A DNA stretch of 37,339 nt from a virus, in IMG/VR virus record IMGVR_UViG_3300033571_004293, positions 1 to 37,339 of that record; one strand, written 5' to 3'. Position 1 is the stretch's first letter; each line of letters opens with the position of its first letter. Positions 1 through 37,339 of the stretch are shown piece after piece. A program made the translations under genes and the position numbers. Below the pieces are notes generated by a model. That model saw nothing but the letters and a program-made list of their open reading frames with translations, made no database searches and was not told the DNA's origin.

Positions 1-87
1 CTTCATTGAGTGGTTGGAGTCTCGTGGCATGGTTCGTGCCAGCGAGACAAAGACTGGCGAGGGTGGTGCGTTGCACGTTCACATCAA
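1..87. repeat. Left copy of 87-bp terminal direct repeat (circular overlap)
   Basis: These 87 bases are identical to the last 87 bases of the window. The repeat lies wholly inside one reading frame that continues correctly across the joint, so it behaves as the overlap of a closed circular contig rather than a separate biological element. A true physical terminal repeat cannot be excluded without reads. Confidence 0.95.
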
Positions 88-385
88 TCGTGATGCGTTT
101 GATGATGATGAACATATCCGCAGGTTTGAACGTCATCTGCTTGATGCCGTGTCGGGTTTGACGAATGGTGACGGATACTCAAAGTATCTGTTTCTGGATA
201 TGTCACTAATCGACAGTGCATACGCACGTTATGAACCGAATCCAGATTGGCATTACGCCAGATGGTTTGCCGTTGCCGTGAACCGTTCAACTGTTGAGGT
301 TCGTTGTTTCTCGGATTTGTGTGACCCACGAGATGCACTTCTTGTGGTGAGCATAATTCTGCGAAAGACAAAGGAGAACAAGTGA
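1..385 (+). CDS. GS-fold amidoligase A, C-terminal part (gene split by contig ends)
   Basis: This is the second part of a 227-residue protein whose start is at 36954; bases 2-385 encode residues 101-227. It carries the later motifs of the glutamine-synthetase-like COOH-NH2 ligase (amidoligase) superfamily: a G-A-L-H-V-H segment (H125, H127 of the joined protein) and a V-E-V-R segment (E199, R201) that usually help bind ATP, metal and phosphate. The family joins a carboxylate to an amine at the cost of ATP. At 227 residues it is shorter than its neighbour amidoligase because it lacks the cysteine-rich head. The stop overlaps the GTG start of the next gene. The substrate cannot be told from sequence. 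Any annotation that treats base 1 as a true end will truncate it. Confidence 0.75.
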   Translation, partial: FIEWLESRGMVRASETKTGEGGALHVHINRDAFDDDEHIRRFERHLLDAVSGLTNGDGYSKYLFLDMSLIDSAYARYEPNPDWHYARWFAVAVNRSTVEVRCFSDLCDPRDALLVVSIILRKTKENK

Positions 386-597
386 CGGTCAGAAATGACG
401 GTCAGTACAAGACGGTGGTTTCACCTGACGGTACTGGCTGGAAAGTGACGCTGTGGTTTGGTGAGTATCTACTTGACGGTGGTTTATTCAACGACTATGG
501 TTCATGCTGGAGGTGGGCGTTCAAGCGTCGCACCGAACACACACAAGGTCTGATGAGCGAGGAAGGCTCATTGGGGTTTATTGTTCCAGAACAATAA
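382..597 (+). CDS. Hypothetical protein, 71 aa
   Basis: The protein starts at a GTG that overlaps the stop of amidoligase A (GTGA overlap), with AAGGAG at 371-376, so it is probably translationally coupled. It is rich in Trp, Gly and Tyr and has no recognised domain. Its last codons (Ile-Val-Pro-Glu-Gln-stop) are formed by the 22-bp palindrome at 577-598, so the C-terminus is constrained by that DNA element. Its position between two amidoligases suggests a role in the same module, but that is inference. Confidence 0.65.
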   Translation: MTVRNDGQYKTVVSPDGTGWKVTLWFGEYLLDGGLFNDYGSCWRWAFKRRTEHTQGLMSEEGSLGFIVPEQ

Positions 598-598
598 A
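577..598. promoter_or_regulatory. Palindromic element, copy 1 of 3
   Basis: The core TTATTGTTCCAGAACAATAA at 578-597 has perfect 9-bp arms around a central CA. At this copy the arms extend to 10 bp. The same 20 bases occur at 35335-35354 and 35886-35905. This copy overlaps the end of the 71-residue gene and lies 36 bp before the start of amidoligase B. A DNA-binding dyad (operator) is my preferred reading. As RNA it would be an A/U-rich hairpin without a U tract, so it would be a poor terminator. Confidence 0.6.
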
Positions 599-634
599 TC
601 AACAACACACAACAACAAACACAGGAGAAATCAA

Positions 635-1783
635 ATGACAACAGACAACACAATCAACGAGGAACCGATTGAGGAACCGCCGTTCTGCAACTGCGAATGG
701 TGCGATACCGAAATCGCAACCGAGGATGATGTGCAGTACGTCAATGAACTGCAGTTGTGCAACGACTGTCACGACCACGCTGTTCCGTGCGGTCGTCGTC
801 GCTGTTCAACGGTGGTCGACACCTACAGCGAGGGGTTGTATTACATTGACCAGACGAACACTTCCGTGTGCAGTGACTGTGCAGACAGTTACTACACGTA
901 CTGTTCCACTCATGACACGTACCGCAACAATGGTGACCATTGTTCATACTGTCGTGAGGACGAGGAGGAGTACGACTATGACGGTGGCAGTGGTGTTCAC
1001 AGTTACTCGTACAAGCCGAGTCCTGTGTTTCACGACTTCATGCAACAGCGCAAGGTGTTGTTCAATCGTGACAACGGCACAAACCCAATGACTGGGTTTG
1101 AGTTGGAGATGGAGTACTGCAACGCAGATTCCGACGACACGGTGACTACATTGACCGACATCTTTGGTGACTTTGTTTACTTCAAGACTGACGGTTCACT
1201 GAACGACGGTGTGGAGATGGTCTCGCATCCAGCGAGCATCAACTTCCTGCGGTCGCTTGAGTGGAATCGTCTGAGCGAAGTAACCAGACTCGGTGTTCGT
1301 TCCTCTAATGCACCTGGTGGCACTTGTGGTCTCCACGTTCACATTGGCAAAGCGTTCTTTGCTGGTCAAGAGACAACCTTCTACCGATTCTTGAACATGT
1401 TCTACTCATTCGCAGAGCAGTGGAAAATTATCGGCGGACGTGACAGTCACTACGGCAGATTCCTTGACCCTGAGGATGCAAACATGTTGCACAGTGTCAA
1501 GGCTATGCGTCGTAATGGTCACGGCTCATCTCTTGGTGGCGAACGATATGTCGCAGTCAATTTGCAAAACCGTCACACAGCAGAGTTGCGTTTCTTCAAA
1601 GGTACACTCAACCCTGCGACACTGATGGCACGAATTGAATCCGTTCACGCTGTTGCACGATTCGCCAAAGATTCACGATTCAAGTTCAACCCGAAGTCTT
1701 TGACTTGGGAAGCGTTCCGTGAGTACACAACTAATGAGGGCTACGAAGCGTTCAATGCCCTCGCAACAAAGAAAGGTATATAA
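635..1783 (+). CDS. GS-fold amidoligase B with N-terminal cysteine-rich zinc-binding-like domain
   Basis: The protein has 382 residues. The ATG at 635 follows AGGAG (623-627); an upstream in-frame ATG at 581 lies inside the palindrome and is less likely. Residues 18-106 hold twelve cysteines in pairs (C18/C20/C23, C42/C45, C52/C57, C79/C82, C90, C103/C106), like tandem treble-clef or zinc-ribbon folds. Residues 153-345 match the amidoligase core: G154-x-E156-x-E158, D186-G-S-L, G192-x-E194 followed by S-H198-P, H234-V-H236, and E317-L-R319-F. The same motif series appears in amidoligase A, so the two are diverged paralogues. The superfamily forms amide or peptide bonds using ATP. The next gene, 2 bp downstream, is a glutamine amidotransferase, the usual partner that supplies ammonia. 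The acceptor is unknown. Confidence 0.8.
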   Translation: MTTDNTINEEPIEEPPFCNCEWCDTEIATEDDVQYVNELQLCNDCHDHAVPCGRRRCSTVVDTYSEGLYYIDQTNTSVCSDCADSYYTYCSTHDTYRNNGDHCSYCREDEEEYDYDGGSGVHSYSYKPSPVFHDFMQQRKVLFNRDNGTNPMTGFELEMEYCNADSDDTVTTLTDIFGDFVYFKTDGSLNDGVEMVSHPASINFLRSLEWNRLSEVTRLGVRSSNAPGGTCGLHVHIGKAFFAGQETTFYRFLNMFYSFAEQWKIIGGRDSHYGRFLDPEDANMLHSVKAMRRNGHGSSLGGERYVAVNLQNRHTAELRFFKGTLNPATLMARIESVHAVARFAKDSRFKFNPKSLTWEAFREYTTNEGYEAFNALATKKGI

Positions 1784-1785
1784 CA

Positions 1786-2658
1786 ATGTGTCTATTGACA
1801 TTCGCCCATGAGGGTGTGACTCCAGACCTTGATGCTCTCAAGACTGGTGCAGAGAACAACCCCGATGGTTTCGGGTTTGCCATTCATGCTGGTTCACATA
1901 TTGTGAAGTGCAGTGGTTTGGACTTTGACCAAGTGATTGAAGAGTTCATCAAGCAACGAGCCATTCACAGCGGACCAATGCTGTTTCACTCGCGTATCAC
2001 TACGCATGGTGGAACATCAAAGGCAAACTGTCACCCATTCCAAATCGGTCGTGACCGCCTGAGTGTGCTTGCACACAACGGTATGTTGCCGATTGCTGAG
2101 GATAAGGGTCGCAGTGATACTCGTATTCTTGCGGAGGATTTGCTTCCTTCGTACGGTGGTGTGTCTGCACTCAATGGCAAGAAGTTCCGCAAGAAACTCA
2201 GCAAGTTTGCCGAGGGTTCCAAACTCGTCATCTTGACCGCCAATAGTTCTAGTGCTAATCCATTCTGGATTATCAACGAGAACCTTGGCTCATGGTCTGA
2301 TGGTGTGTGGTGGTCTAACTCGTCATACAAGTGGTCACGCAAATCATACGCTTGGTCAAACACGTACACGTCTGGTTGGTCATCATCAACTGTGATTGAG
2401 AAGTCTGTCACTCCAGTTGACGACGCACCAAACGCTGATGAGTTCTGGCATGACAAGTGGATGTGTCAGGGTTGTGGCATAGTTGAGTATGTTGACGATT
2501 TCAATGTCGACCAATTTGACTGGTGCACCAACTGTGACACTTGCTGGTTCTGTCACGACCCACGCAAACTGTGTCGCTGTCAGCACTACGAGTACCATTC
2601 GGAACCAATGCGCAACTTTTATGATTCGCTAGTTGACTTAGAGGAGGAAGCCTTCTAG
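1786..2658 (+). CDS. Class II (Ntn) glutamine amidotransferase with C-terminal cysteine-rich tail
   Basis: The protein has 290 residues and starts Met-Cys; Cys2 becomes the N-terminal nucleophile after Met removal, as in the GATase II family. Conserved glutaminase motifs are present: N25-P-D-G-F-G30, H68-S-R70 followed by H74-G-G, an H83-P-F element and A96-H-N-G99. The domain hydrolyses glutamine to release ammonia for a synthetase partner. No synthetase is fused to it, but two amidoligases lie immediately upstream in the same operon. Residues about 230-275 add a new cysteine-rich segment with repeated CxxC pairs, echoing the cysteine-rich head of amidoligase B, so the two may dock or share a zinc-dependent scaffold (inference). 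A middle stretch rich in Trp and Ser has no known counterpart. Confidence 0.85.
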   Translation: MCLLTFAHEGVTPDLDALKTGAENNPDGFGFAIHAGSHIVKCSGLDFDQVIEEFIKQRAIHSGPMLFHSRITTHGGTSKANCHPFQIGRDRLSVLAHNGMLPIAEDKGRSDTRILAEDLLPSYGGVSALNGKKFRKKLSKFAEGSKLVILTANSSSANPFWIINENLGSWSDGVWWSNSSYKWSRKSYAWSNTYTSGWSSSTVIEKSVTPVDDAPNADEFWHDKWMCQGCGIVEYVDDFNVDQFDWCTNCDTCWFCHDPRKLCRCQHYEYHSEPMRNFYDSLVDLEEEAF

Positions 2659-3347
2659 TGCAAATCGGTTACAAACAATTCGACAAACTAGTTCAGGAGA
2701 TAACAAACAAAATGGATAACAAGAAGTACAACAAGGGAATCACTACTGTCGTCATTGACATTGAGTATGATTTGGACGAGTCACTCAGACCGAATCGTAG
2801 TCTGCTCAAGCAGAAACTTGCCGAGGTCATTGACAACAGTACACATCTGTCACCTTATAGCGATTACATTCGTGGCGAGGACGGATTGTACATTCAGGAC
2901 GAGGACGGTAACTACAAGAAAAAGGAAACTTCATCTTTGATGTTGACTCGTATTCAAGTCAAGAACCTTGATGATGACGTCGTGTCGTCACTTGACAAGC
3001 GTGTCGTTGACAGTTGCAAAGAGTCTCGCCTATACAAGATGGACTTCAACCTCTTGGACACACTCAGAAGTGCACTGTGTCAGTACACCACGCATTGGAA
3101 TGTCAAGGGTGACTCCATCATTTCACTGCGTGACATTGACGGTGAGGACGTGTCGCTTAGTCTAAATGATGCTATCATGATTATCAACGATAGATACAAT
3201 GACTTGCGATACAAATTGAACGACCTTGCTCGTGAGGAAATGTTGAACATAATTCGCCAGTTTCTCACTGACGAACTTGGTGATATTCAATTTGAGAACA
3301 ACCGATTCGTTCACAACGAGTTGGCAGACAACAACGATTTGTCCTAG
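2658..3347 (+). CDS. Hypothetical protein of the amidoligase operon, 229 aa
   Basis: The GTG start shares its G with the preceding TAG stop and follows a strong GAGGAGG (2641-2647), so it is coupled to the amidotransferase. The protein is acidic and hydrophilic, with no signal peptide, membrane segment or cysteine cluster. Two or three helical stretches at about 120-210 could be coiled coil. I do not recognise the family. Its place right after the amidotransferase makes it a candidate partner or substrate of the amidoligases, which is inference only. Confidence 0.7.
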   Translation: MQIGYKQFDKLVQEITNKMDNKKYNKGITTVVIDIEYDLDESLRPNRSLLKQKLAEVIDNSTHLSPYSDYIRGEDGLYIQDEDGNYKKKETSSLMLTRIQVKNLDDDVVSSLDKRVVDSCKESRLYKMDFNLLDTLRSALCQYTTHWNVKGDSIISLRDIDGEDVSLSLNDAIMIINDRYNDLRYKLNDLAREEMLNIIRQFLTDELGDIQFENNRFVHNELADNNDLS

Positions 3348-4316: not shown

Positions 4317-4865
4317 ATGAGGAAACTTGTAGCAATCTCAATCATCACATCAACCCTGATGCTGTCGCCACCTGCTCACGCAGACGACAGCGCAACAACG
4401 ACAACATATCCACCGACAAAAGAACAAAAGGCAAAACTTGAATACTGGTATCAATCAAACGACCCACGCACCCCACCCTCTAGGTACTGGGATGCGCTCG
4501 CTAAATGCGAAACAGGAAACAACTGGCAGAACAAAGGTCAGTGGTCTGGTGGTCTGGGCATCTACCAACGCACGTGGTATGAGTTCGGTGGCTACGACTA
4601 TGCGAAGCACCCTTGGCAGGCTTCGTATGTTCAGCAACTGGTTATCGCAAACCGTATCTCGCTGTTTGGGTACAAGTGGAAGAACCGATACCGCACATGG
4701 GACGACAAGGTGGCTGGCAGGGGAATGGTCAAGTATCCTGTCCGCTACTTCGGTTGGGGGTGTGCCCGAGAAACCACAGGAAACCCCTGTGGGAGGCTCC
4801 CAGACGGCTCCAAAGGGTACTTCCGCCCATCACGTGCCTGGGTCTCTAGGAACTGTACAAATTAG
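4317..4865 (+). CDS. Secreted Rpf-type transglycosylase-like protein
   Basis: The 182-residue protein starts with a Sec signal peptide: a basic Met-Arg-Lys start, a hydrophobic core to about residue 17, and a likely cut after A-H-A (residues 20-22). A Thr/Pro-rich linker follows. Residues 57-115 match the resuscitation-promoting-factor/lysozyme-like fold (Transglycosylas family): W-D-A-L-A-K-C-E65-T-G-N-N-W, then G-G-L-G-I-Y-Q-x-T-W. E65 is in the position of the catalytic glutamate. Such enzymes cut the glycan strand of peptidoglycan outside the membrane and are characteristic of Actinobacteria. Three cysteines (C64, and two near 149 and 158) may form a disulfide. Being in the early arm and exported, it is unlikely to be the classical endolysin. 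It could remodel the wall or act on neighbouring cells (inference). Confidence 0.8.
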   Translation: MRKLVAISIITSTLMLSPPAHADDSATTTTYPPTKEQKAKLEYWYQSNDPRTPPSRYWDALAKCETGNNWQNKGQWSGGLGIYQRTWYEFGGYDYAKHPWQASYVQQLVIANRISLFGYKWKNRYRTWDDKVAGRGMVKYPVRYFGWGCARETTGNPCGRLPDGSKGYFRPSRAWVSRNCTN

Positions 4866-6725: not shown

Positions 6726-7781
6726 ATGAGACTTTCCGCAGAAGCAATTCAAGCGGGATGGGAGAATGTTGGGACGGAACCTGTCGGGGGTTCCGTCCCT
6801 TCACCCATTTCGGAATACCGCCACTACACACCACTCGCTGAAGCCGCACACAGTTTTGTTCACTGGGCACAAACCCCACAAGAACGTATCTATTTGGGCA
6901 TTGACCCAATCGACCAGGAGATGCGTGGCATCGCACCTGGTGAGTTGGCAATGATGTTGGGCTACAGTCACGGTGGTAAGACACTCGCATTGTTGCACTG
7001 CCTGCAACAGAATCGTGACAAGAAGGTTGCGTTCTTCATCCCTGATGAACCCAAGACCTTGGTGCTTACGAAACTGACCTGCATGTATCACAACATTGAT
7101 GCACGAGAACTGGAGTCACGTGTCGCAGACGACGACAAGGATGCAATCAATCTGTTGCGTTCCACAGCCGAAGAGGACTTCTCCAATCTCGCAGTGTTTG
7201 ACCAACCGTTGCTACCGTCCGACATGGAACGTGCCTACGGTGAAGTGTGTGACGTGTGGAACTCCAAACCAGACCTGGTGGTCGTTGACTATCTGGAGTT
7301 GGTGGAGGCTGGCGAGCAGGTTCCCGATAAGGCAAACTTCCTCAAAGGCTTCGGTCGTCGCCACGATGTTCCAATGCTGGTGCTACACCAGACATCTAGA
7401 ACGTCTGGCGCGAACGGTCACAAACTCACCATGTCATCTGGTGCGTACGGTGGTGAACAGCAGGCAACTTCAATCATTGGTGTACGACGCAAGAAGTATG
7501 AACTGATGGCTGAAATCATTGACCTGAAAGACCGCCTTGACCGCAACCACAGCGAGAAGGCACAGGAACGTCTCGACATGTTGCAATATGAGTTGCGTAT
7601 TCACGAGTACACGCTCACCCTGAGCCTGCTCAAGAACAAGCGACCTGCTGGTGGCTTGGTCGATGACGTTGACTTTGAACTGGACATCCGAACAGGCAGA
7701 CTGTGGGAACTCAAGGATGGCGAACTGCCAGACCAGTACCTCAGGACGAAGGCATCATGGACACAGCAACAGATTCTGTAG
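6726..7781 (+). CDS. DnaB/RecA-fold replicative helicase-like ATPase
   Basis: The protein has 351 residues. It carries a Walker A motif G79-Y-S-H-G-G-K-T86, a Walker B-like strand ending L-V-V-V-D-Y-L-E-L (about residues 178-187), and a following V-L-H-Q-T-S-R element typical of motif H3 in DnaB-type SF4 helicases. The region upstream of the ATPase core is only about 60 residues, so the DnaB N-terminal domain is missing, as in several phage helicases. It is placed between the nuclease and the primase and would unwind the fork together with that primase. A RadA/KaiC-like role is an alternative. Confidence 0.8.
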   Translation: MRLSAEAIQAGWENVGTEPVGGSVPSPISEYRHYTPLAEAAHSFVHWAQTPQERIYLGIDPIDQEMRGIAPGELAMMLGYSHGGKTLALLHCLQQNRDKKVAFFIPDEPKTLVLTKLTCMYHNIDARELESRVADDDKDAINLLRSTAEEDFSNLAVFDQPLLPSDMERAYGEVCDVWNSKPDLVVVDYLELVEAGEQVPDKANFLKGFGRRHDVPMLVLHQTSRTSGANGHKLTMSSGAYGGEQQATSIIGVRRKKYELMAEIIDLKDRLDRNHSEKAQERLDMLQYELRIHEYTLTLSLLKNKRPAGGLVDDVDFELDIRTGRLWELKDGELPDQYLRTKASWTQQQIL

Positions 7782-8659
7782 AAACCGTAGAGCGGTTCAT
7801 AGAACTGTTTCGTGGACGTGGAGATGTGTACGGTGCATGGGGTGGTGGCTGTGTCCGCCAAGCGTTGACACCTGAAACATTCCGCCGACACCTGATGGGT
7901 GAAGAACTAATTGGGGTTTACCCAATCGTGCCTCGTCAAGGCGAACATGTATGTGTGTGGGGTTGCTCCGACATAGACGTGGACGACCTTGATTCGGCAC
8001 GTAATCTTCAAACCGCACTGCAAATCAAAGATGTTCCATCATGGGTTGAGAAGACCGCACGTGGCTATCACGTGTGGGTATTCTCCGACACCCTAGTGCC
8101 AGCATCCACGATGCGCAGAGCGTTACTAGCCGCACACCAAGCAATCCAATACCCTGCCAAAGAAGTGAACCCCAAACAGGAAACACTGAACGGCGGTGTC
8201 GGAAACTATGTGCGACTCCCATACCCAGCAGGACTAATGGGCATGCCAGAGAACAGATTCATTCTGGACGACGAAGACCAACCAATCACATTGGAAAAGT
8301 TTGTCAACTCTGCAATCCTGTTCCGCACCACACTGCCACAGTTGGACAGCATCGCCAAACTGTACCGTCAACCCGAACAGCAGACCATCACCTTCTCAGA
8401 GGAGACACCTCAACTGAAAAGAATGTTCTCCAAGATGACCGCAATACCGTACGTCATCTGGCGAGACGGACCAGTTGCTGGCGCAGACAGGTCATCGACA
8501 CTGTTCAAGTTGGCATCATTTCTGAAGAACGATGGACTGTCACCAGAAGAAGTTCTGGTTGTGGTCACCAACGCAGACATGCGATGGGGTAAGTTTCATC
8601 AGAGAGTTAACGGCGAGAAAGATTTACGCCACCTAGTTGAGAAAGCATTCGGTGCGTAA
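7757..8659 (+). CDS. Archaeo-eukaryotic primase (AEP) superfamily protein
   Basis: The ATG at 7757 follows AGGACGAAGG; an in-frame start at 7703 would overlap the helicase by 79 bp. The 300-residue protein has the AEP signature: D72-x-D74 in a C-S-D-I-D-V-D strand, H105 in R-G-Y-H-V-W (the usual S-G-x-G-x-H position), and an N-Y-V-R-L-P segment near residue 155. It resembles the small primase domains found in phages and in TOTE-type conflict systems. It should synthesise primers for replication. No polymerase gene was found, so the host replicase or extension by the AEP itself must finish the job. Confidence 0.75.
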   Translation: MDTATDSVETVERFIELFRGRGDVYGAWGGGCVRQALTPETFRRHLMGEELIGVYPIVPRQGEHVCVWGCSDIDVDDLDSARNLQTALQIKDVPSWVEKTARGYHVWVFSDTLVPASTMRRALLAAHQAIQYPAKEVNPKQETLNGGVGNYVRLPYPAGLMGMPENRFILDDEDQPITLEKFVNSAILFRTTLPQLDSIAKLYRQPEQQTITFSEETPQLKRMFSKMTAIPYVIWRDGPVAGADRSSTLFKLASFLKNDGLSPEEVLVVVTNADMRWGKFHQRVNGEKDLRHLVEKAFGA

Positions 8660-11508: not shown

Positions 11509-11796
11509 TCACCACTTCACCTTGTCTGCCCAGTACGCCGCAGACATTTTGCCCTTGGCGATGTTGCCTGCATGACGAGCCTTGAACGACTTACGGCGAG
11601 CCGCATACGATGCGGATTCGCCAGCCTTCTTCGGAGAACCCTTCACACCCTGTTGACCAAAACGAATCGTCTTCACCTGCGACCCCTGTTTCGCAACTAC
11701 AATATGAGACTTCTTTGGATGTGTCGGCGTAGCCTTCGGTTTGTTATACCCAGATACACCAGCCCTGGCGAGTCGTGGGTCTTTACGGGATGCCAT
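11509..11796 (-). CDS. Small basic phage protein, 95 aa
   Basis: The protein is very rich in Lys, Arg, Gly and Ala with no acidic clusters. Its start (D-P-R-L-A-R-A-G-V-S-G-Y-N-K-P-K), a core I-R-F-G-Q-Q-G-V, and an end F-K-A-R-H with M-S-A-A-Y-W-A-D-K-V-K-W follow a pattern I recall from short conserved proteins of aquatic podophages, of unknown function. It starts 1 bp inside the end of the giant gene. It may bind DNA inside the head or sit on the virion. Confidence 0.7.
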   Translation of the reverse strand: MASRKDPRLARAGVSGYNKPKATPTHPKKSHIVVAKQGSQVKTIRFGQQGVKGSPKKAGESASYAARRKSFKARHAGNIAKGKMSAAYWADKVKW

Positions 11797-14700
11797 TACT
11801 GTGCCCTTTCAATGTTGAGTCGCTTGGACTTCTCTGATTGCTTCTGACGTTTCCTGGCCATAACAGTAGACCTTTGCATCTGCGGAGTTACCTGCCTGAT
11901 TGGAATACCAGCCCAGTTCATAGCCGCATATCCGCTGAAACCACCATCAACAGGTGGGAACAATCTGTTCGCTTGACCCAATGTTGGAATCAAACTTGTC
12001 AACATGTACATTCCCTTTTCAGAGGCAACCGCTTCTCCCTGTTGGTTGTATTCAAGTTGACCCATTGCCGCAAGCAAAGGAATCACAGCCTTGTTAGCAC
12101 CAGTCACCTTGTAGTAACGGTCAGAGAAATTCTGTCCAGTAAAAAACTTCTTACCAGCAAAGAACTCCAATGGTGCACGAACACCAGGGTTTACGTAACT
12201 CAATAATGTTGAAGGTTTGGAAATGTTTCTCAAAACATCTTCAGCAGCATTTTGCGGAAGGTCTGGCATGAACACGTTAGACCCACCAATCGGAATAGCA
12301 CCACCTTGTTGCATCCATTCAGGCATATTAGGAATAGGTTGACCAGCAATATTCAGTGCAAACCGATTGTAAATGAGGTAAGCCTTTGGATTGGAGAATC
12401 TGTTCACCAATTGCAACGGAAGGTTGCGCGACATCCAGGTCCAGAATGGAATAATTCCACGAACAGCCTCATCCATTACTGTCGGGTCATTGTAGTCAAA
12501 CAGGTAACGCTTTACACGTGCGAACGAATCGTTGAACTCCATACCTTTCTTGGCTGAATCAAAAGCAAAAATGAAACGAGCAGAACCTTCGATACGTTGA
12601 CCAGTCTTGCGACTCAAGTTCAACACTGGATTATCAACCAGTGTTGAACCACCCTTCTTTACAAACTCCGACAACGCTTCTTCTGTTCGTCCACCACCAA
12701 GGGCAAAGTAAACATTCTTTGCAATTTCAGCCTGCGCTCGTTGTTCCTGCGGAATCCAAGCCAACCATTTTTCAATAGCACGTTCATCAGAAGACATCAA
12801 AGCCTCACGGAAAGAACCCCACAACTTCAAACCTTCAGTCATGTTTGCAACATCTGCGCCACCAGCAAACATTTGGAATGTGTTGCTGATTGCGTTGCGC
12901 AAATGGAAACCAGGAGTTGCAGTTGCATAAGCCTTGAAGAATCTTGTATATCCGCTCATGAATCTGCTCAATTCATTTGCAACAGCACTACTGCGAATGC
13001 GTCCAATATTTTCCAATGTTGTAACAAATTCACTATTGCCATACAAACTTGGCATTCCCAACTCAGCCAAAGATTTTTGACCCTTGTTCAACCCAAGTTT
13101 CTTTGCCATCTTCTCATAGCCATCTTCCCAAGGCTTGAGAATATTATTCTGAACAATACCCTCACTCAAAGAATCCAACCTGAACTTGGCATGTTGACCT
13201 CGCATGGACTCAATCAAGAATCTACCTTCAGCCTCAAACGCTCTGGACACAGCCTGATTCACGGGGTCTTCCAAATCGCCAGCAGTCAACTTCCCAAAGA
13301 ACTCACGATTCGCTTCAACCCACTTAAAGATGTCAACCCACATGCCAGTCTTTGTATCTGTGATTCCCTTCGTCTTGAGAACATCTTTCCAACCAGCAGG
13401 CAGACTTGACAATACATCACCAATCTGCTTCCTGGTGGATTTCATTTCTTCAATCAAATTAGGTATTCCACCAACCCTGTCAGTTGGTCCATAAAGTGCT
13501 TCTTCTAAGGTGAATATGCTGTCATATTGACGAGCAACATTATCAGCCGCATCATCTGCGGCTTTAGTTAACTTGGCAACGTCCTTACGTGCTCCCTCAA
13601 CAGACTTGAACAATCTTTCCCAACGCTTCTTATATGCATCATCTGTCAACTTTGACAATACAGCAAGACGTTTCTTTGCTTCAGTACGCAAAGCATTGTT
13701 AGCCTTTTGAATTTCAACTTGCTTATTGCCCATAGCGAGAGCGGAATCAATAGTTCCCTGTGCCTGAACACGCTGTTCTTCAAGGGACAATTTACGTTCA
13801 ACAAGTTGAGGTTTAGCCGCTTTGTACTCAGCCTCAACACCCTCTCTAAAACCAGGTACTGCAGAAGTTGACGCACCAGGAGTTCCCTCTTTAATAGACT
13901 TCTCAACATCTTTTGCGCGAGTACGCAATTGATTCATAGCAGTTTTGAAATCTTCGCTCAATGGGTCTTTCAAAGATGGAGGAACAGTAAACCCACGTGA
14001 TTCCATGGCAGAAATAATTCTGTTAAGAACTTTTTCTGCCGACTCACGAGAATCGTTGCCCTTTGTAATAATGTCTTGAATTTCAATCTCGACATCGGAA
14101 GCAGACTTTCGTGCCGTTTGTGCATTTGCGACAAGAGTATCCTTGTTCTTTAACATTTGGAAATACTCTTCAAGATAGTAGGCATCGTGCATCGTATTTG
14201 CTCTTGCAATTACAGCACTTTCAGGAGTGGAATCAAACGCTTCTTTAATCGCATTTCTGCGAACAGTCACCAAACCAGAATCAAGATTTATAGTCTTGTC
14301 AATCGATTTAGCCTTATCAATAAAAGTTTGCAAAGAGTCTTTTGTGAACACGGGCAACTGTCCGTTGCGTCCATGAACAAGAATATCCATTTTCTCCAAC
14401 GCCGATGCGCGAACTTGAGGGTCAAGTGAAGCAATAAAAGCACGTTGCACATCAGCCTTCTGCTTCATCTGTGCAATCTGTGACTTCAATTCCATAATCT
14501 GTCGCTTTACGGCAACAGATTCCCCATATCCAACTTTTGCGAGTCTCTTGTCACCCTTGGTAACCATACCCTTCAGCGTCTTTAAACGTGCTTCACCTGA
14601 TGCAATCTGAGAATCAAGACTAGCAAGAGTTGCATTGAGGCGACGAGCCTCATCTGGTCCAACCGTACGTGTTGAGAACTGATATTCAATTTGCAACTTG

Positions 14701-17700
14701 GACTTACGCAAGTTTGCAATTTTTTGCTCAGTATCATATTTTTCACGAACAACAGCACGACGCCTATCACGTATGTTTGTTGCTTCTTTTTCATTTTTTG
14801 CAACAAATAATTCAAGACGAGAAATTTCTTTCTGTGTTTCCGAAATTGAATCATCAAGGGTTTTCAGTGTGTTTGTTGCCCTACGAATTGAAGCAGCAGG
14901 TTTATCGTAGGTTCCAGGAACATTGTAAAGTGCTCGCCATTCGGCATCACTAAAAGTGATTGCCTCTTTCACGATTGTTCCATCTGGATTCTTACGCTCA
15001 ATTACAGCAAAACCTGACAAATCATCTGGAGTACCAATCATTTGATATTCGTCCTGCAAACGTGCCAACTCTTCCTCGTTCGCCGTGATTTGCTCCGCAA
15101 TTGCAGCACGTTCTTCTGTGCGCAAAATCAAGTTTTCATCAAGTTCATTCTTCAATCCCTCAATTGTTGTTTTGAGATTTTCAACACGTTGAGAATGAAG
15201 ACTTGTTGTTTTCATTAAACTATCAACTTTGCCAGCATCAACAGTTCTAAAACCATTTCTGAAATTGTTAACAGACAAATCAAGTTCAGCCAAAGCAACA
15301 AGTACATCAACAGTTTCTCTGTCCTTCATTGCCTTGAGATACTCTGGAGAAGAAGTCAATTTCTTGTACGCATCAATGCGGGCGGCTCGACGAGCCTTGT
15401 ATTCTTTTGAAGCCTTATTGAAAACAAATTCTGGCTCAGTCATATCAGGTCCGTATTCAACAGCCATGCCATCAATTTGTTTTTGTACACGTTCCGCTTC
15501 CGCATCCAACTGCAAAGCCCTAGACAACAAACCTTCCTTGTCTTTGTATCTGCCAGGAATGCGAGCCGCATCACCCTCCAACTGGTCTGCAATGCTATTC
15601 AACCAATCAATATAACCACTTGCGGTTGTTGTCCTAAAAGAACCAACAGGATTCTCAAGCCATTTATAAACATCAGTGAATGGGTCAACAAGTCGTTCAA
15701 GTGCAGAAACTTGTTGCCTTGCCCTTGCCTTGGCAGTATCAAGAACACCAATAGACAAAGCAGAAATACCAGCCTCAGCGGTTCCAGCCCTGTTGTAGGT
15801 TGCACGTGACATGGTTGTTTGTGTCGTCAACAACGAATCAAGAAAATTATATACATCACTTTCTGAAGCCATCGGATGGAATGGACCAATAGCAGATTTG
15901 CGCCCACGAACCTTTGCAACTTTTTCAGTTGCAGAAGTAACCTTGTAAGCCTCTGTGACTTTTCCAGGTTCAACCAAAGCCGCTTTCTTGACAGCGGCGT
16001 TTTCCGCCTGTCTTGCAACATCCTCAACAGTGAGCGCAACCTGAGTAGTGCGCCCACGTCGACCAATGCGTTCACCAGAAATACCCTTAAGAGTTTCGAT
16101 AATTTTTCCAGCACTCATACCAGTTGTTTCATCTGGATATGCACGTTTAAACCAAGGAATCAAAACCTCTTCCTCGTAACGACGACGCATCATTGCCGCT
16201 GGAGTCCAGTTCTTATTCTTTGATTCTGGAAGATTACGATATTCACGCATCTTCTTCAACCAATCTGGATGCTTTTCCTGCAACCATGCTGTAATTGAAG
16301 CAACACTTTCATCAGTTTCAGACAAGGCTTTAAAATTCCTGGTCTTCATTCTCATGTATCCATCAATCAACATTTGTGGGTCGTCGCCAGTAAGGCGAGG
16401 ACCAAGAATACGATTGACAGCAGAATTGGTTGCTTCGCCCTGCATGACCGAATCAACAACTTCACGGAAAATGGAGGAGACAGAACCAGGAGTCTCCGTG
16501 TCTACCGCACCACGCATTCTTTCTGAAAACAATTGCCTCATCGATGTAAGTGCGGATTCAGCAATTTCAATATCGTCACGGTATCTGTAAGCAGAATCCA
16601 GATACTTTTTGGCAACATTACGTACAACATCATTGTACATTTTTTCTGTTGGAATGTTTCCAAGTGGCAACATCAACCTTGACAATGTATCCATTGTTGC
16701 GTGAACCTCGGACACGAGATTATAACGCATAACCTCATCAAGTAGTTCATTCTTTATTTGCTGACCATATTCAGCACCCTTGCGAAGACGCAACAATCTC
16801 TTTGCACGTGAACCAGAAAAAGCGTTAATCAATTTTTCTCTTTGATTCTGATACTTGATAATTGTTTGCCGTGCAGTCAACTTGATTGTTTCGTTAGTAC
16901 CACCAATGGCGGTTTCTCTCTTTAATATTTCTGCCTTGACTCTATTGATTTCGTTCTCAATAGAAGCAAGGTCATCCTCAATACTTGCACCACCAAACAT
17001 TTTCTTAACTTGACCCATCTTGACAACTTCTTCCGAAGCGTCAATCATTCTGTATTTGCGTTGAGTCAAATCTCCAAGTTCTTTTTTCAATTTCTGCAGT
17101 GCTTCAAAATCTTTTTCAAGATTTTTAGCCCTGCTAGGATTCAGGTACTTTGGAGTATCAATTTGCCTAAAGTGCTCGTCTCTAATTTTCAACATTGCAT
17201 CACGCAGTTCGTAAAGACCCCACGTGTCAATGTCCATGCCCATTGCTCGCATGCCATCAAGTGTTTGTGCCACAAATACATCTTGTTCAAGTTCTTGAAT
17301 AATCTGTGACGGGTAACGTGAGTCCGCATTGATTCGCGCAATACGAACATCCTCTGCTATTTGTTCGGCAGTTCTCGGTACATCAACCCCGTCAATGACA
17401 TCAAACTCACGTTTTGCCCATCTCTCGCTGTCATTAATTTTTTTATTAATTTTCGACCAAGCAGAATCGACGGATGTAAATCTGTCGATTTCAGTTGTTG
17501 CTTCTTCGACGATTCCATCCCACTTGTCATCAAACATTGTGACACTTTTAATCTGTGCTTTCTGGACCAATGACTTTTCAATATCCGAGTCAACTTGTGA
17601 GGCTCGTTTCGCTACTTCAACAAGTCGCAACAACCTATCCCGAACCCCATCTGGCATCTTGTCGAGCGAACCGTAGATGCGCATGTCGCGCATAATCAGA

Positions 17701-20315
17701 TGTGCCGCCAATTCACGAGCATTTCTCAACGTAGCATCATGCGACATACCCTCAATTAACGCTCTTGAGAAATCTTCATAACTCATGGCGAATGAACGCT
17801 CTTGCAAAAGTTTTGCACCGCCGTACGCAACACGTTCGCCCTTTTTACTTGTTTGCTCCCATACGGTTACGGCAATTTCGTTCCACAATTTTGCCGCATC
17901 ACTATTTGATGCGAGTTCTTTTGCAAACCAATCACGGAAAGATTCAAATGTATACATCCCAGAATCTGGAAAGTTCATCAACATCTTTGCACGTACAGAT
18001 GGGTCTAAACCAGAAGCACCAGCAATTGACCTAATAGCATTGTAGACATCAGCACCAGGAACATCATCCTTAAAAACTATACCCTTGATTGCTTTCGCTA
18101 TATTCTCTTCAACCATTTGACCGCTTGAAATAGCGGTAACAAATTGTTTTTCAAGAATATCAAGTTGGCTTGTTGCGTCCGTAAGTTCTTTTACAAGATT
18201 ATCAACAATTGATTGTTGGTCTCCGACAATTCCGTTCGCCAAATCTGCAAATGCTTTGCTTGCTTTGTTGTCCAGGTCAAGATTTTGAATGCGAAGTTTC
18301 AGATTGTCGATTGTGTCAAAAAGATTCTGAATCAAAACTGGTCCAGAAGCGGCAGGCAAACCTTCTGACTTAATCCATTTAGCACCAGCAGTTCCGAACA
18401 TTTCCATGAACTGTTTTACCAACGGGTCTGCCGCATCCTCAGCACCAAGGGCCTTAATTACTGCATCCATATTGAAATCTTCTGGAGTTAATCCAAGCGT
18501 ATCAACCACGTTTGCGCGCAACCAAGGATTGTCGTGTCCATAAAACATTCTTCCAAACGAATCTTGCATTTCGGATAGACGAGCCATTGCATCCGACAAT
18601 TGTGCAGAAAGCAAATTGAATTTGTCTTCCATTTCTGTAACTGCAAGACGACGAACACCCAGGTCTGCTAAACCAGATTCCATTTTTGGAATTGAAGCCT
18701 CCATCTCTTTGGAAACTTTTTCTAATTGTTTGACCAAATCTTCAATGGCAGATTTTTTATCCTTCAAAGATTGTGCTACACCCTCAACGGATTCACGAAC
18801 CAGTTTTCTTGCATCATCAACAGCCATGGAATCAACAAAGGTTGATTCCCATTCTGCATCACGACCAAAATTGATAACACCAGCATCTTTTAGATACTTG
18901 TAACGAGACAGTGTTGCAATCTGTTTTGAATAGTCCTCAACATATGAGGTCATTAATTTCTGAATATCTGTTTCAAAGAAGTTGCCCTGGAACCCAGCCT
19001 CACGAGCAATTTGATTCAAACGTGAAACCGTCAAATCATCTTTTTCCAAAGTTTTTCCAAAAAACTTGCTCTTCTCAACCAACCCACGAGTCTTGAACGC
19101 ACCACCCTCGTCGATAGCACCATCCTTAACAAACTGTTTGAACAAATCATTTGCGTGTGGATTATTTAAATCGTTTATATATTTAAAAGCATCTTCAGAC
19201 AGTACTCGCGGAATATAACCATCACGAACAAAACCAAACTTTAATGCTGGGTCAATCTGTTGAGCAACAGTATCAACCTCATCGTACAAAGTCTTTAGGA
19301 AATTTTTCCAAACCTCAGCCGCCCGCACCTCATCAGCAGTTGCCATAGCGGCAACAGCAGGTTCCTCAATTACACGATAGAGAGACCCACGGTAAACCTC
19401 AAATCCTTTAGGAGCCTCTTGCTCCAATGTATTTGCGAGCCGTGTAGTGGTATTGCGTAGTGTTTCACCACTGATTGCACGTGCAGTATTTTCCCAGTTC
19501 AACAACTTAATAATTCCAGCGGCCTCTTCTGGGCTGGCAAGTCCACGAGCAAGGCGAAGTCTTGCCTCGTGCAGTGACTTGTTCATGAACTTTCCTTGGA
19601 GCGTTTGTCCAAGTCGTGTCTCTGAAGTTGCTATACGAAACTTAGCCAATGCACGTTCTGCTCGCATTCCAACACCTTCGGAAAATGGAACACGAACAGC
19701 AGGCAATTTCTTCCCAAAAAAATACACGCCACTCTTATTCAATCCAAGGCGAGATAAATCTTCAGCACTTAAAGCCGCACGACCAAGACGAGCCGCAGAA
19801 GCGGCAAGTGCATTATCACCAGTTGTTTCAAGAACTTTACCAGCAAGAGCAAGACGACCAGAATATCCAGCAAAGTGACCCGCACCAAAAGTCATATAGG
19901 TCAATGGGTCAGTTGCAACATCTCCAGCAAAACCAATCAAACGGTCAAGCCAAATCATTCCCGTATTCGGATTGAAAGCCTTACCAAAACCGTATTCTTT
20001 GTCGCTTATATTTTTCTTGAAATCAGACCAGGAAACTTTTGTGGCAGGGTCGCCATCTAGCGAATTAGCCGCCTGTTCCAGTCCAGCAACAACAATCTTT
20101 CCAGGAAGTGCAATCTTTTCCAGACCACTCAAAACACCCTGAAGTGCTGACGCACCAAGACCAGAACCGCCACCAGATGTTTGTTGACGTTGAACTATCT
20201 CTGCAGGCAACCTTCCAGGTGCTGAACCAACAGACCGCCCAAAGGAAACGCCTCCGCCCTGAGAAGCCTTCAGGCGGGCAAGTTGATACCTAGGGTCATC
20301 ATACGGATTAGCCAT
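11796..20315 (-). CDS. Giant 2839-aa internal virion / polyvalent-type protein
   Basis: One open frame of 8.5 kb, 23% of the genome. The N-terminal 250 residues are Gly/Ala-rich with a D-R-L-I-G-F-A-G-D-V-A-T-D-P segment. Most of the middle, from about residue 490 to 2300, is Lys/Glu/Gln-rich helix with long coiled-coil stretches. The C-terminus is different: G-F-H-L-R-N (2469-2474) and I-I-P-F-W-T-W-M-S-R-N-L-P (2621-2633) resemble the C-terminal modules (LPD38-like) of phage polyvalent proteins, which are packaged and injected with DNA. The end is basic. No protease, lysozyme, helicase or methylase motif was seen. Its place after the tail genes fits an ejection protein that crosses the cell envelope. 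G-T-A-A-C-G lies 14 bp before its start. Confidence 0.7.
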   Translation of the reverse strand: MANPYDDPRYQLARLKASQGGGVSFGRSVGSAPGRLPAEIVQRQQTSGGGSGLGASALQGVLSGLEKIALPGKIVVAGLEQAANSLDGDPATKVSWSDFKKNISDKEYGFGKAFNPNTGMIWLDRLIGFAGDVATDPLTYMTFGAGHFAGYSGRLALAGKVLETTGDNALAASAARLGRAALSAEDLSRLGLNKSGVYFFGKKLPAVRVPFSEGVGMRAERALAKFRIATSETRLGQTLQGKFMNKSLHEARLRLARGLASPEEAAGIIKLLNWENTARAISGETLRNTTTRLANTLEQEAPKGFEVYRGSLYRVIEEPAVAAMATADEVRAAEVWKNFLKTLYDEVDTVAQQIDPALKFGFVRDGYIPRVLSEDAFKYINDLNNPHANDLFKQFVKDGAIDEGGAFKTRGLVEKSKFFGKTLEKDDLTVSRLNQIAREAGFQGNFFETDIQKLMTSYVEDYSKQIATLSRYKYLKDAGVINFGRDAEWESTFVDSMAVDDARKLVRESVEGVAQSLKDKKSAIEDLVKQLEKVSKEMEASIPKMESGLADLGVRRLAVTEMEDKFNLLSAQLSDAMARLSEMQDSFGRMFYGHDNPWLRANVVDTLGLTPEDFNMDAVIKALGAEDAADPLVKQFMEMFGTAGAKWIKSEGLPAASGPVLIQNLFDTIDNLKLRIQNLDLDNKASKAFADLANGIVGDQQSIVDNLVKELTDATSQLDILEKQFVTAISSGQMVEENIAKAIKGIVFKDDVPGADVYNAIRSIAGASGLDPSVRAKMLMNFPDSGMYTFESFRDWFAKELASNSDAAKLWNEIAVTVWEQTSKKGERVAYGGAKLLQERSFAMSYEDFSRALIEGMSHDATLRNARELAAHLIMRDMRIYGSLDKMPDGVRDRLLRLVEVAKRASQVDSDIEKSLVQKAQIKSVTMFDDKWDGIVEEATTEIDRFTSVDSAWSKINKKINDSERWAKREFDVIDGVDVPRTAEQIAEDVRIARINADSRYPSQIIQELEQDVFVAQTLDGMRAMGMDIDTWGLYELRDAMLKIRDEHFRQIDTPKYLNPSRAKNLEKDFEALQKLKKELGDLTQRKYRMIDASEEVVKMGQVKKMFGGASIEDDLASIENEINRVKAEILKRETAIGGTNETIKLTARQTIIKYQNQREKLINAFSGSRAKRLLRLRKGAEYGQQIKNELLDEVMRYNLVSEVHATMDTLSRLMLPLGNIPTEKMYNDVVRNVAKKYLDSAYRYRDDIEIAESALTSMRQLFSERMRGAVDTETPGSVSSIFREVVDSVMQGEATNSAVNRILGPRLTGDDPQMLIDGYMRMKTRNFKALSETDESVASITAWLQEKHPDWLKKMREYRNLPESKNKNWTPAAMMRRRYEEEVLIPWFKRAYPDETTGMSAGKIIETLKGISGERIGRRGRTTQVALTVEDVARQAENAAVKKAALVEPGKVTEAYKVTSATEKVAKVRGRKSAIGPFHPMASESDVYNFLDSLLTTQTTMSRATYNRAGTAEAGISALSIGVLDTAKARARQQVSALERLVDPFTDVYKWLENPVGSFRTTTASGYIDWLNSIADQLEGDAARIPGRYKDKEGLLSRALQLDAEAERVQKQIDGMAVEYGPDMTEPEFVFNKASKEYKARRAARIDAYKKLTSSPEYLKAMKDRETVDVLVALAELDLSVNNFRNGFRTVDAGKVDSLMKTTSLHSQRVENLKTTIEGLKNELDENLILRTEERAAIAEQITANEEELARLQDEYQMIGTPDDLSGFAVIERKNPDGTIVKEAITFSDAEWRALYNVPGTYDKPAASIRRATNTLKTLDDSISETQKEISRLELFVAKNEKEATNIRDRRRAVVREKYDTEQKIANLRKSKLQIEYQFSTRTVGPDEARRLNATLASLDSQIASGEARLKTLKGMVTKGDKRLAKVGYGESVAVKRQIMELKSQIAQMKQKADVQRAFIASLDPQVRASALEKMDILVHGRNGQLPVFTKDSLQTFIDKAKSIDKTINLDSGLVTVRRNAIKEAFDSTPESAVIARANTMHDAYYLEEYFQMLKNKDTLVANAQTARKSASDVEIEIQDIITKGNDSRESAEKVLNRIISAMESRGFTVPPSLKDPLSEDFKTAMNQLRTRAKDVEKSIKEGTPGASTSAVPGFREGVEAEYKAAKPQLVERKLSLEEQRVQAQGTIDSALAMGNKQVEIQKANNALRTEAKKRLAVLSKLTDDAYKKRWERLFKSVEGARKDVAKLTKAADDAADNVARQYDSIFTLEEALYGPTDRVGGIPNLIEEMKSTRKQIGDVLSSLPAGWKDVLKTKGITDTKTGMWVDIFKWVEANREFFGKLTAGDLEDPVNQAVSRAFEAEGRFLIESMRGQHAKFRLDSLSEGIVQNNILKPWEDGYEKMAKKLGLNKGQKSLAELGMPSLYGNSEFVTTLENIGRIRSSAVANELSRFMSGYTRFFKAYATATPGFHLRNAISNTFQMFAGGADVANMTEGLKLWGSFREALMSSDERAIEKWLAWIPQEQRAQAEIAKNVYFALGGGRTEEALSEFVKKGGSTLVDNPVLNLSRKTGQRIEGSARFIFAFDSAKKGMEFNDSFARVKRYLFDYNDPTVMDEAVRGIIPFWTWMSRNLPLQLVNRFSNPKAYLIYNRFALNIAGQPIPNMPEWMQQGGAIPIGGSNVFMPDLPQNAAEDVLRNISKPSTLLSYVNPGVRAPLEFFAGKKFFTGQNFSDRYYKVTGANKAVIPLLAAMGQLEYNQQGEAVASEKGMYMLTSLIPTLGQANRLFPPVDGGFSGYAAMNWAGIPIRQVTPQMQRSTVMARKRQKQSEKSKRLNIERAQ

Positions 20316-34297: not shown

Positions 34298-34636
34298 ATG
34301 ATTGTTCAAAAGCAACCAGCACAAACACTCGGAGCATTGAATGCTTCAACAACTGTGTTGAATGTTGAAGACTCGGACCACATCACCGTCACAATTAACG
34401 GTACATGGGCTGGGACGATTGGTTTTCAATGTGCAGCAAACGATAACGTCAGTTATCATCCGCTGGCAATGGTTGCTACATCATCGACTAGTCGAACAAC
34501 TGCAGTTACATCCACGACAATCAACGGTATCTGGGTAGCCAACTTTCATGGTGTCACTAACTTTAAGGTGGTCATGACAGCATACACATCGGGGACTGCT
34601 ACGGTCAACGTGTTTAGTACCCGAGTTTCCAAATAG
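34298..34636 (+). CDS. Beta-sandwich virion-type protein 1 (tandem duplicate), 112 aa
   Basis: The protein is Thr/Ser/Val-rich with alternating strands: L-G-A-L-N-A-S, I-T-V-T-I-N-G-T-W, T-I-G-F-Q, I-N-G-I-W-V-A-N and M-T-A-Y-T-S-G-T-A-T-V. The same strand series is seen in the next gene, so the two arose by tandem duplication. This looks like a decoration, fibre or Ig-like domain. Its rightward direction, opposite to all other virion genes, is odd. Confidence 0.55.
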   Translation: MIVQKQPAQTLGALNASTTVLNVEDSDHITVTINGTWAGTIGFQCAANDNVSYHPLAMVATSSTSRTTAVTSTTINGIWVANFHGVTNFKVVMTAYTSGTATVNVFSTRVSK

Positions 34637-34968
34637 TGCTTACAAAGAATCCAACAGCAACATCACTGGGTGCATTGAACGCAACAGCATCAATCCTGAC
34701 GGAAGACGCTGACGTAGTCGCATTCTCAATCACAGGAACCTTCTCAGGAACCATCACCTTTGAAGCAACAAACGACAACACCAACTGGTTCACATTCGCT
34801 GTAGTCAATTCAGCAAGTGCCGACCGCAAATCAGGAGTCACAACCACAACCACCACAGGCTACTGGTTCCACGAAGTAACAGGATTCCTACAGTTCCGCA
34901 CACGAATGAGCGCATACACATCAGGAACAGCATCCGTCAAATTCACCACAATGCGGTACGAAAAATAG
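34636..34968 (+). CDS. Beta-sandwich virion-type protein 2 (tandem duplicate), 110 aa
   Basis: The GTG start overlaps the preceding TAG by 1 bp. It aligns along its length with the previous protein: L-G-A-L-N-A-T, F-S-I-T-G-T-F-S-G-T-I-T-F, T-G-Y-W-F-H-E and M-S-A-Y-T-S-G-T-A-S-V-K. The two proteins may form a heteromer. A terminator follows. Confidence 0.55.
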   Translation: MLTKNPTATSLGALNATASILTEDADVVAFSITGTFSGTITFEATNDNTNWFTFAVVNSASADRKSGVTTTTTTGYWFHEVTGFLQFRTRMSAYTSGTASVKFTTMRYEK

Positions 34969-36953: not shown

Positions 36954-37339
36954 ATGACATACAAGCATATCAAAAGGTACCGCGACGACAATCCCAAGTG
37001 GGTGTTTCATCACATTGGTGGTGAGCGTTGTCGTTCACCTCGCAAGGGTTCCACATACTTTGGTGTTGAGATTGAGTTTGAGCGACTTGGTTCTGAACAG
37101 CCAGAGTTGGAGGCTATTGCTCGTGAGTTGAAGCAGAAGTTTCCGTGGTTGTGGGTGAAGCATGACAGTTCGTTGATGAACGGATTTGAGGTTGTGTCTC
37201 ACCCAATGACACGTGGTTTCGTTGATGAACAGTTTCATAAACAGGAACCGAACTTCATTGAGTGGTTGGAGTCTCGTGGCATGGTTCGTGCCAGCGAGAC
37301 AAAGACTGGCGAGGGTGGTGCGTTGCACGTTCACATCAA
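36954..37339 (+). CDS. GS-fold amidoligase A, N-terminal part (continues at base 1)
   Basis: The ATG at 36954 follows AAGGAAAAC. The frame runs off the window after 128 residues, and on the circle joins 1-385 in the same frame (total 227 residues). This part holds the early amidoligase motifs: F-G37-V-E39-I-E41-F, H70-D71-S-S-L, G77-F-E79-V-V-S-H83-P and the H125-V-H127 element, which recurs in the repeat. These match amidoligase B one for one. Residues 1-35 are basic with a single Cys, in place of the cysteine-rich head of amidoligase B. It may be the catalytic core acting with that paralogue and the amidotransferase. Confidence 0.75.
   Translation, partial: MTYKHIKRYRDDNPKWVFHHIGGERCRSPRKGSTYFGVEIEFERLGSEQPELEAIARELKQKFPWLWVKHDSSLMNGFEVVSHPMTRGFVDEQFHKQEPNFIEWLESRGMVRASETKTGEGGALHVHI
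37253..37339. repeat. Right copy of 87-bp terminal direct repeat
   Basis: Identical to bases 1-87. An exact overlap inside a coding frame is what assemblers leave on circular or circularly permuted genomes, so the unit length is 37252 bp. Confidence 0.95.

Follow-up and report, generated by a model that had tools for sequence, protein, structure and literature searches.

What do two ligases of glutamine synthetase (GS) fold and a class II glutamine amidotransferase (GAT) accomplish together at the point where the rightward early genes of a phage begin? We examined this question in the IMG/VR viral record IMGVR_UViG_3300033571_004293, the whole 37,339 bases of which form the window analyzed here. 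Our favored answer, held tentatively, is that GAT supplies ammonia and that one of the ligases, amidoligase B, modifies a peptide carboxylate by amidation or ligation early in infection, with the host cell wall as the likeliest location. An initial annotation of this DNA placed amidoligase A through the junction of the record's ends, followed by B, GAT, and a protein X, and this arrangement was confirmed:

36954 to 37339, plus strand: amidoligase A, first part; a compact GS-fold ligase without a cysteine head that matches phrog_16683, also the family of B, at 3.6e-13
1 to 385, plus strand: amidoligase A, second part; bases 1-87 duplicate 37253-37339
382 to 597, plus strand: open reading frame (ORF) of 71 amino acids (aa) between A and B; its GTG start overlaps the stop of A
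635 to 1783, plus strand: amidoligase B, 382 aa; a LIM-like cysteine-rich head (about residues 18-105) and a GS-fold ligase domain
1786 to 2658, plus strand: GAT, 290 aa; an Ntn hydrolase with Cys2 and a cysteine-rich tail
2658 to 3347, plus strand: protein X, 229 aa; translationally coupled, its GTG overlapping the GAT stop

The two ends of the record are identical over 87 bp, and gene A runs in frame across this terminal overlap as a single ORF of 227 aa (36954 to 385). The assembly is therefore circular or terminally redundant, and was cut inside gene A.

Comparison with related phages shows that the minimal unit is B plus GAT, which are almost always neighbors. Single-protein scans found no relatives of A or B, and since those for A, B, and X were empty, alignments were needed to reach relatives. 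From IMG/VR, 80 GAT relatives were fetched of 456 that passed, and more loci were added through alignments of A-type and B proteins. A B-type ligase accompanied GAT in all 85 loci of the first set (fetched or listed, named phages included), and thus the pairing is not due to chance. Across all sets there were 123 distinct B genes, 109 of them with enough room downstream for GAT to be seen; GAT lay directly downstream in 104 of these. Ninety-nine had GAT within 600 bases under our ORF rule and five (L007, L071-L074) were recovered by tblastn, the rule having missed them because the ORF start was called too far upstream. The remainder comprise one locus with a weak GAT directly upstream of B (L163) and four in which B has no GAT (L136, L155, L166, L167). 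Named carriers of the pair include the Marvin group, the Methylophilales phages MEP401/402, and a podovirus from Manatee Spring. The cysteine-rich domains noticed initially on the head of B and the tail of GAT are real and usual among relatives, with at least six cysteines in the heads of 88 of 116 B genes; no correlation was found between cysteine heads and tails (rho -0.12).

Judged from sequence and structural model, B has a GS-fold ligase domain that lacks none of the residues invariant in its family. It matches Pfam Amidoligase_2 (PF12224) at 1.3e-5 (25.7 bits against a cut-off of 22) and phrog_16683 at 3.5e-30, and a profile search of solved structures paired its head with zinc domains of the LIM type (2cup, 1.5e-5). 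Eleven residues, namely E156, E158, K184, D186, E194, H234, H236, R269, N309, E317, and R319, are invariant across 56 sequences, and R304 is nearly so; the metal/ATP motifs ExE, DGS..G.E, H.H, and E.R are all found. The AlphaFold model (mean pLDDT 86.5) has YbdK as its best solved match (3.3e-6). Glutamine synthetases and gamma-glutamyl-methylamide synthetase ranked next, then PafA, which is a Pup ligase, and the depupylase Dop (the last two at 4.0e-4 to 6.2e-4); glutamate-cysteine ligase was also matched, as were the predicted structures of the amidoligases of phages tf and CW02.

Its partner GAT is a GlmS-type class II glutaminase with intact catalytic residues. It matches GATase_4 at 1.6e-8 and phrog_25883 at 5.3e-31, and the profile search of solved structures returned the glutaminase domain of GlmS at 1.3e-8. 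The two were aligned, and the invariant residues of the glutamine site are C2, R70, N98-G99, and D111. A single-protein scan of cellular genome contigs with GAT gave no match, yielding neither a cellular relative nor a prophage host. Together, the matches to Pfam Amidoligase_2, GATase_4, and phrog_16683 bear out the identities first assigned to these proteins.

Amidoligase A is a rare, compact second ligase and a new element of the locus. Against Pfam Amidoligase_2 it scored under the cut-off (0.047, 14 bits). Profile scores separate A-type genes clearly from B, at 244-363 bits with the A profile but 111-137 with that of B, and they form one clade (support 0.82-0.86). Besides the window, seven contigs (six of them distinct) carry such a gene, which in every case precedes B by 276-465 bases; this count is a lower bound, as some contigs are truncated on that side. 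The expectation that the gene set recurs in other phages thus holds for B and GAT, which nearly all related phages carry, but for A-type genes only in these few contigs. The initial annotation also ascribed the same motif series to both ligases. This is correct for the metal/ATP motifs, which A shares, and the residues aligned with E156, E158, E194, H234, H236, R304, E317, and R319 of B are kept in all eight A-type sequences; it fails for the equivalents of R269, N309, and G232, which A has lost. An A-type ortholog, from locus L019, was modeled in place of the window's A (pLDDT 79, residues 135-160 poorly modeled), and its first match was YbdK (probability 1.00, E 2.7e-3). Loss of the GS fold or of the metal site in both ligases had been set beforehand as a refuting outcome; instead, the fold was modeled for both ligase types and their metal-site residues are kept. 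The ratio of nonsynonymous to synonymous substitution was 0.24 for the A-type and 0.23 for B in the one close pair tested, indicating purifying selection. The kept metal site, the clade, and the selection data, along with the missing R269, indicate that A is maintained and GS-like with an altered active site.

A single transcript of the cassette is likely. B starts at an ATG preceded by AGGAG, only 2 bases separate it from GAT (which begins MC), and GAT and X overlap, confirming the coupling reported initially. Given the 71-aa ORF, A and B are not direct neighbors, and a terminator-like hairpin between them (549-575) leaves the single transcript short of proof. A promoter scan gave no excess over chance; terminator-like sites outnumbered the mean of shuffled sequences, without clear meaning. 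The 71-aa ORF had no profile match and only a weak 26-residue resemblance to a small ORF upstream of B in loci L018 and L020. Its assignment to a family found upstream of B in other loci (F19) was rejected. X had no convincing match in Pfam, PHROGs, phage, or IMG/VR searches. In relatives, the slot behind GAT is usually filled by other uncharacterized proteins of 130-270 aa; comparing X with these families by hhalign gave nothing, while three of them (F27, F29, F57) look like distant kin of one another and a fourth (F110) at most weakly.

One gene further downstream bears on the proposed target:

4317 to 4865, plus strand: putative secreted Rpf-type transglycosylase-like protein; PF06737 at 8.9e-13; about 1.7 kb behind GAT

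Of the 55 relatives that have 3 kb of sequence after GAT, 47 encode a protein of SLT_3 (lysozyme-like) or Rpf type no more than 2.5 kb behind it, with an N-terminus that is hydrophobic. The two families have no detectable kinship, yet occupy one slot about 1.7 kb behind GAT (e.g., 4317-4865 in the window, of Rpf type; L058:7623-8042; L011:5305-5877). A peptidoglycan hydrolase at this position fits a cell-wall theme, and the Rpf-type gene may be a functional neighbor of the cassette.

The remaining genes are those of a phage, including a P22/SU10-like portal, terminase, DnaB-type helicase, RusA, a PD-(D/E)XK nuclease, and a VanY-type endopeptidase. The replication module contains an AEP-TOTE type primase (7703-8659, 9.6e-19). 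A minus-strand ORF of 2,839 aa (11796-20315), probably encoding a virion-internal protein, fills about 23% of the genome, and a pair of neighboring small proteins that resemble each other in sequence (34298-34636 and 34636-34968) probably arose by tandem duplication. One related contig carries a WhiB-like gene near the cassette (L084:6990-7271; PF02467, 1.2e-13), the family of which occurs in 29 related contigs. WhiB in relatives and the Rpf-type domain make actinobacterial hosts likely, and the record is probably an uncultivated phage of freshwater actinobacteria.

How might these proteins act? We propose that GAT would free ammonia from glutamine beside B, and that B would spend ATP to turn a carboxylate into an acyl phosphate, which it would then amidate or join to an amine. 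The LIM-like head and cysteine tail would be modules for docking or for binding the substrate. A may be a second, diverged ligase for a different carboxylate, or an ATP-binding partner subunit. The groups modified would most likely be carboxylates on the stem peptides of peptidoglycan or on its precursors (those of D-isoglutamate and diaminopimelate), and a wall altered early in infection might confer resistance to rival phages or to premature lysis. The initial idea of a phage amidation or ligation pathway holds on identities, fold, and conservation; its peptidoglycan target we still infer, and we regard the cell wall as the likeliest target at somewhat under an even chance. Several observations weigh against this model. 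A fusion of B to GAT was looked for as proof that the two are partners, and none was found; ammonia would have to pass between separate proteins, and GAT might instead be a hydrolase. The R269 equivalent is lost in all eight A-type sequences, and the window's A also lacks those of N309 and G232. The slot hydrolases are part of one lineage's syntenic backbone and are missing in distant members (L003, L004, L006, L007), making them weak evidence for a wall target. For related cassettes, no experiment on substrate, product, or activity is given in PMC5498523, PMC3890496, PMC11945000, or PMC10580990.

The most serious competitor, which we consider a good deal less probable than not, is that the cassette serves to synthesize or amidate a small molecule, such as a peptide-like metabolite or a nucleotide or base precursor, for example a counter-defense or DNA-modification compound. 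Two of the enzymes with the nearest solved structures, YbdK and glutamate-cysteine ligase, have small molecules as substrates, the cassette lies early beside replication genes, and a secondary-metabolism role has been suggested for the Marvin pair, as cited in PMC10580990; however, no base-modification gene (DpdA, TET/JBP, or thymidylate-synthase-like) was present among the replication-module genes scanned. It is unlikely that B instead adds an amide or amino acid to carboxylates of a host or phage protein bound by its LIM-like head, in the manner of PafA. LIM-type heads usually bind proteins, the model of B matches PafA and Dop, and WhiB in relatives points to actinobacteria, whose Pup ligase PafA has the GS fold. 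Set against this, YbdK and other small-molecule ligases outscore PafA and Dop, and the pair also occurs in phages of bacteria such as Methylophilales, which are not known to pupylate. The amidotransferase partner further weakens a protein target, as it suggests that the nucleophile is ammonia rather than a protein amine.

Other alternatives concern the roles of GAT and A. GAT might run in reverse, trimming gamma-glutamyl or amide groups off peptides in a cassette that cuts and religates; its class II glutaminase domain stands alone, fused to no synthase, and the phage GATase is classed under degradation in PMC5498523. We deem this improbable, as all glutamine-site residues are invariant and a ligase almost always adjoins GAT. 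Similarly poor prospects attach to A being an inactive, decaying duplicate: R269 is gone throughout the A-type and N309 and G232 from the window copy, but all eight sequences keep the metal-site residues (E, E, E, H/H, E) and two arginines, and the A-type is a clade of its own, with purifying selection seen in the one pair compared. Slightly better, although still doubtful, is the prospect that A, B, and GAT form a two-ligase enzyme on a zinc-domain scaffold, by which this rare branch would make a doubly modified product; since A keeps the metal site but not the invariant arginine of B, it would perform a second, different ligation.

Glutamine-dependent amidation of stem-peptide carboxylates in peptidoglycan is performed by MurT-GatD in Staphylococcus (PMC3267633) and by LtsA-type enzymes. 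These resemble the present locus in proposed chemistry, a ligase plus a glutaminase acting on such carboxylates, whereas the MurT-GatD folds are unrelated, as MurT belongs to the Mur ligases and GatD to the class I glutaminases. Conversely, YbdK, the glutamate-cysteine ligase 2 family, and glutamine synthetase share the ligase fold and residue pattern found here, but at 8-16% identity, without a zinc head, and with known small-molecule substrates.

Amidoligase/GATase cassettes are widespread in phages, with a suspected cell-wall role. RIO-1, phiEco32, 7-11, PA11, tf, LUZ24, PaP3, and CW02 share a seven-gene cassette hypothesized to change peptidoglycan and exclude superinfection, in which a gamma-glutamyl amidoligase and another amidoligase are accompanied by GGCT, a GATase, and an ATP-grasp enzyme (PMC5498523). 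UFV-P2 has COOH-NH2_lig, Amidoligase_2, GATase, ATP-grasp, and GGCT-like genes (PMC3890496), and the same peptidoglycan modification module is given in PMC11945000. Like this "peptidoglycan modification cassette" (RIO-1, PSA-HP1, LUZ24, tf, PA11, phiEco32, CW02), our locus combines two GS-type ligases with a class II GATase in an early cluster. The published cassettes additionally have an ATP-grasp ligase and GGCT, and in UFV-P2/LUZ24-like phages the second ligase is COOH-NH2_lig (PF14395) rather than the A-type. We found no GGCT match (GGACT/PF06094) in the whole record, no PF14395 ligase here, and no ATP-grasp protein in those genes of the window that were searched against Pfam or PHROGs, X itself being without a match. 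With GGCT undetected, the locus is placed as a variant related to the published cassette rather than a full member: it is close kin, reduced, without detectable GGCT or PF14395, and with another second ligase.

Similar in architecture are gp105 and gp106 of the Marvin-group (cluster S) mycobacteriophages, a cysteine-headed amidoligase directly before a cysteine-tailed class II GATase, as here (29-33% identity); these have a single amidoligase beside the GATase and neither an A-type gene nor X in the stretch examined. In the OM43 phages MEP401/MEP402 and more than 30 metagenomic relatives, a PF12224 ligase likewise directly precedes a GATase near replication genes, although there is one ligase, its N-terminus is longer, and the host is Gram-negative (PMC10580990, which cites Iyer 2009 and the Marvin paper). 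The published two-amidoligase cassettes and the Marvin pair leave the initial claim of an undescribed system unsupported. What the relatives define is the B+GAT unit, its invariant residues and adjacency, a rare extra ligase, and a hydrolase neighbor in most of them; as Marvin-group phages of Mycobacterium smegmatis carry B and GAT, the function of the pair is open to experiment there.

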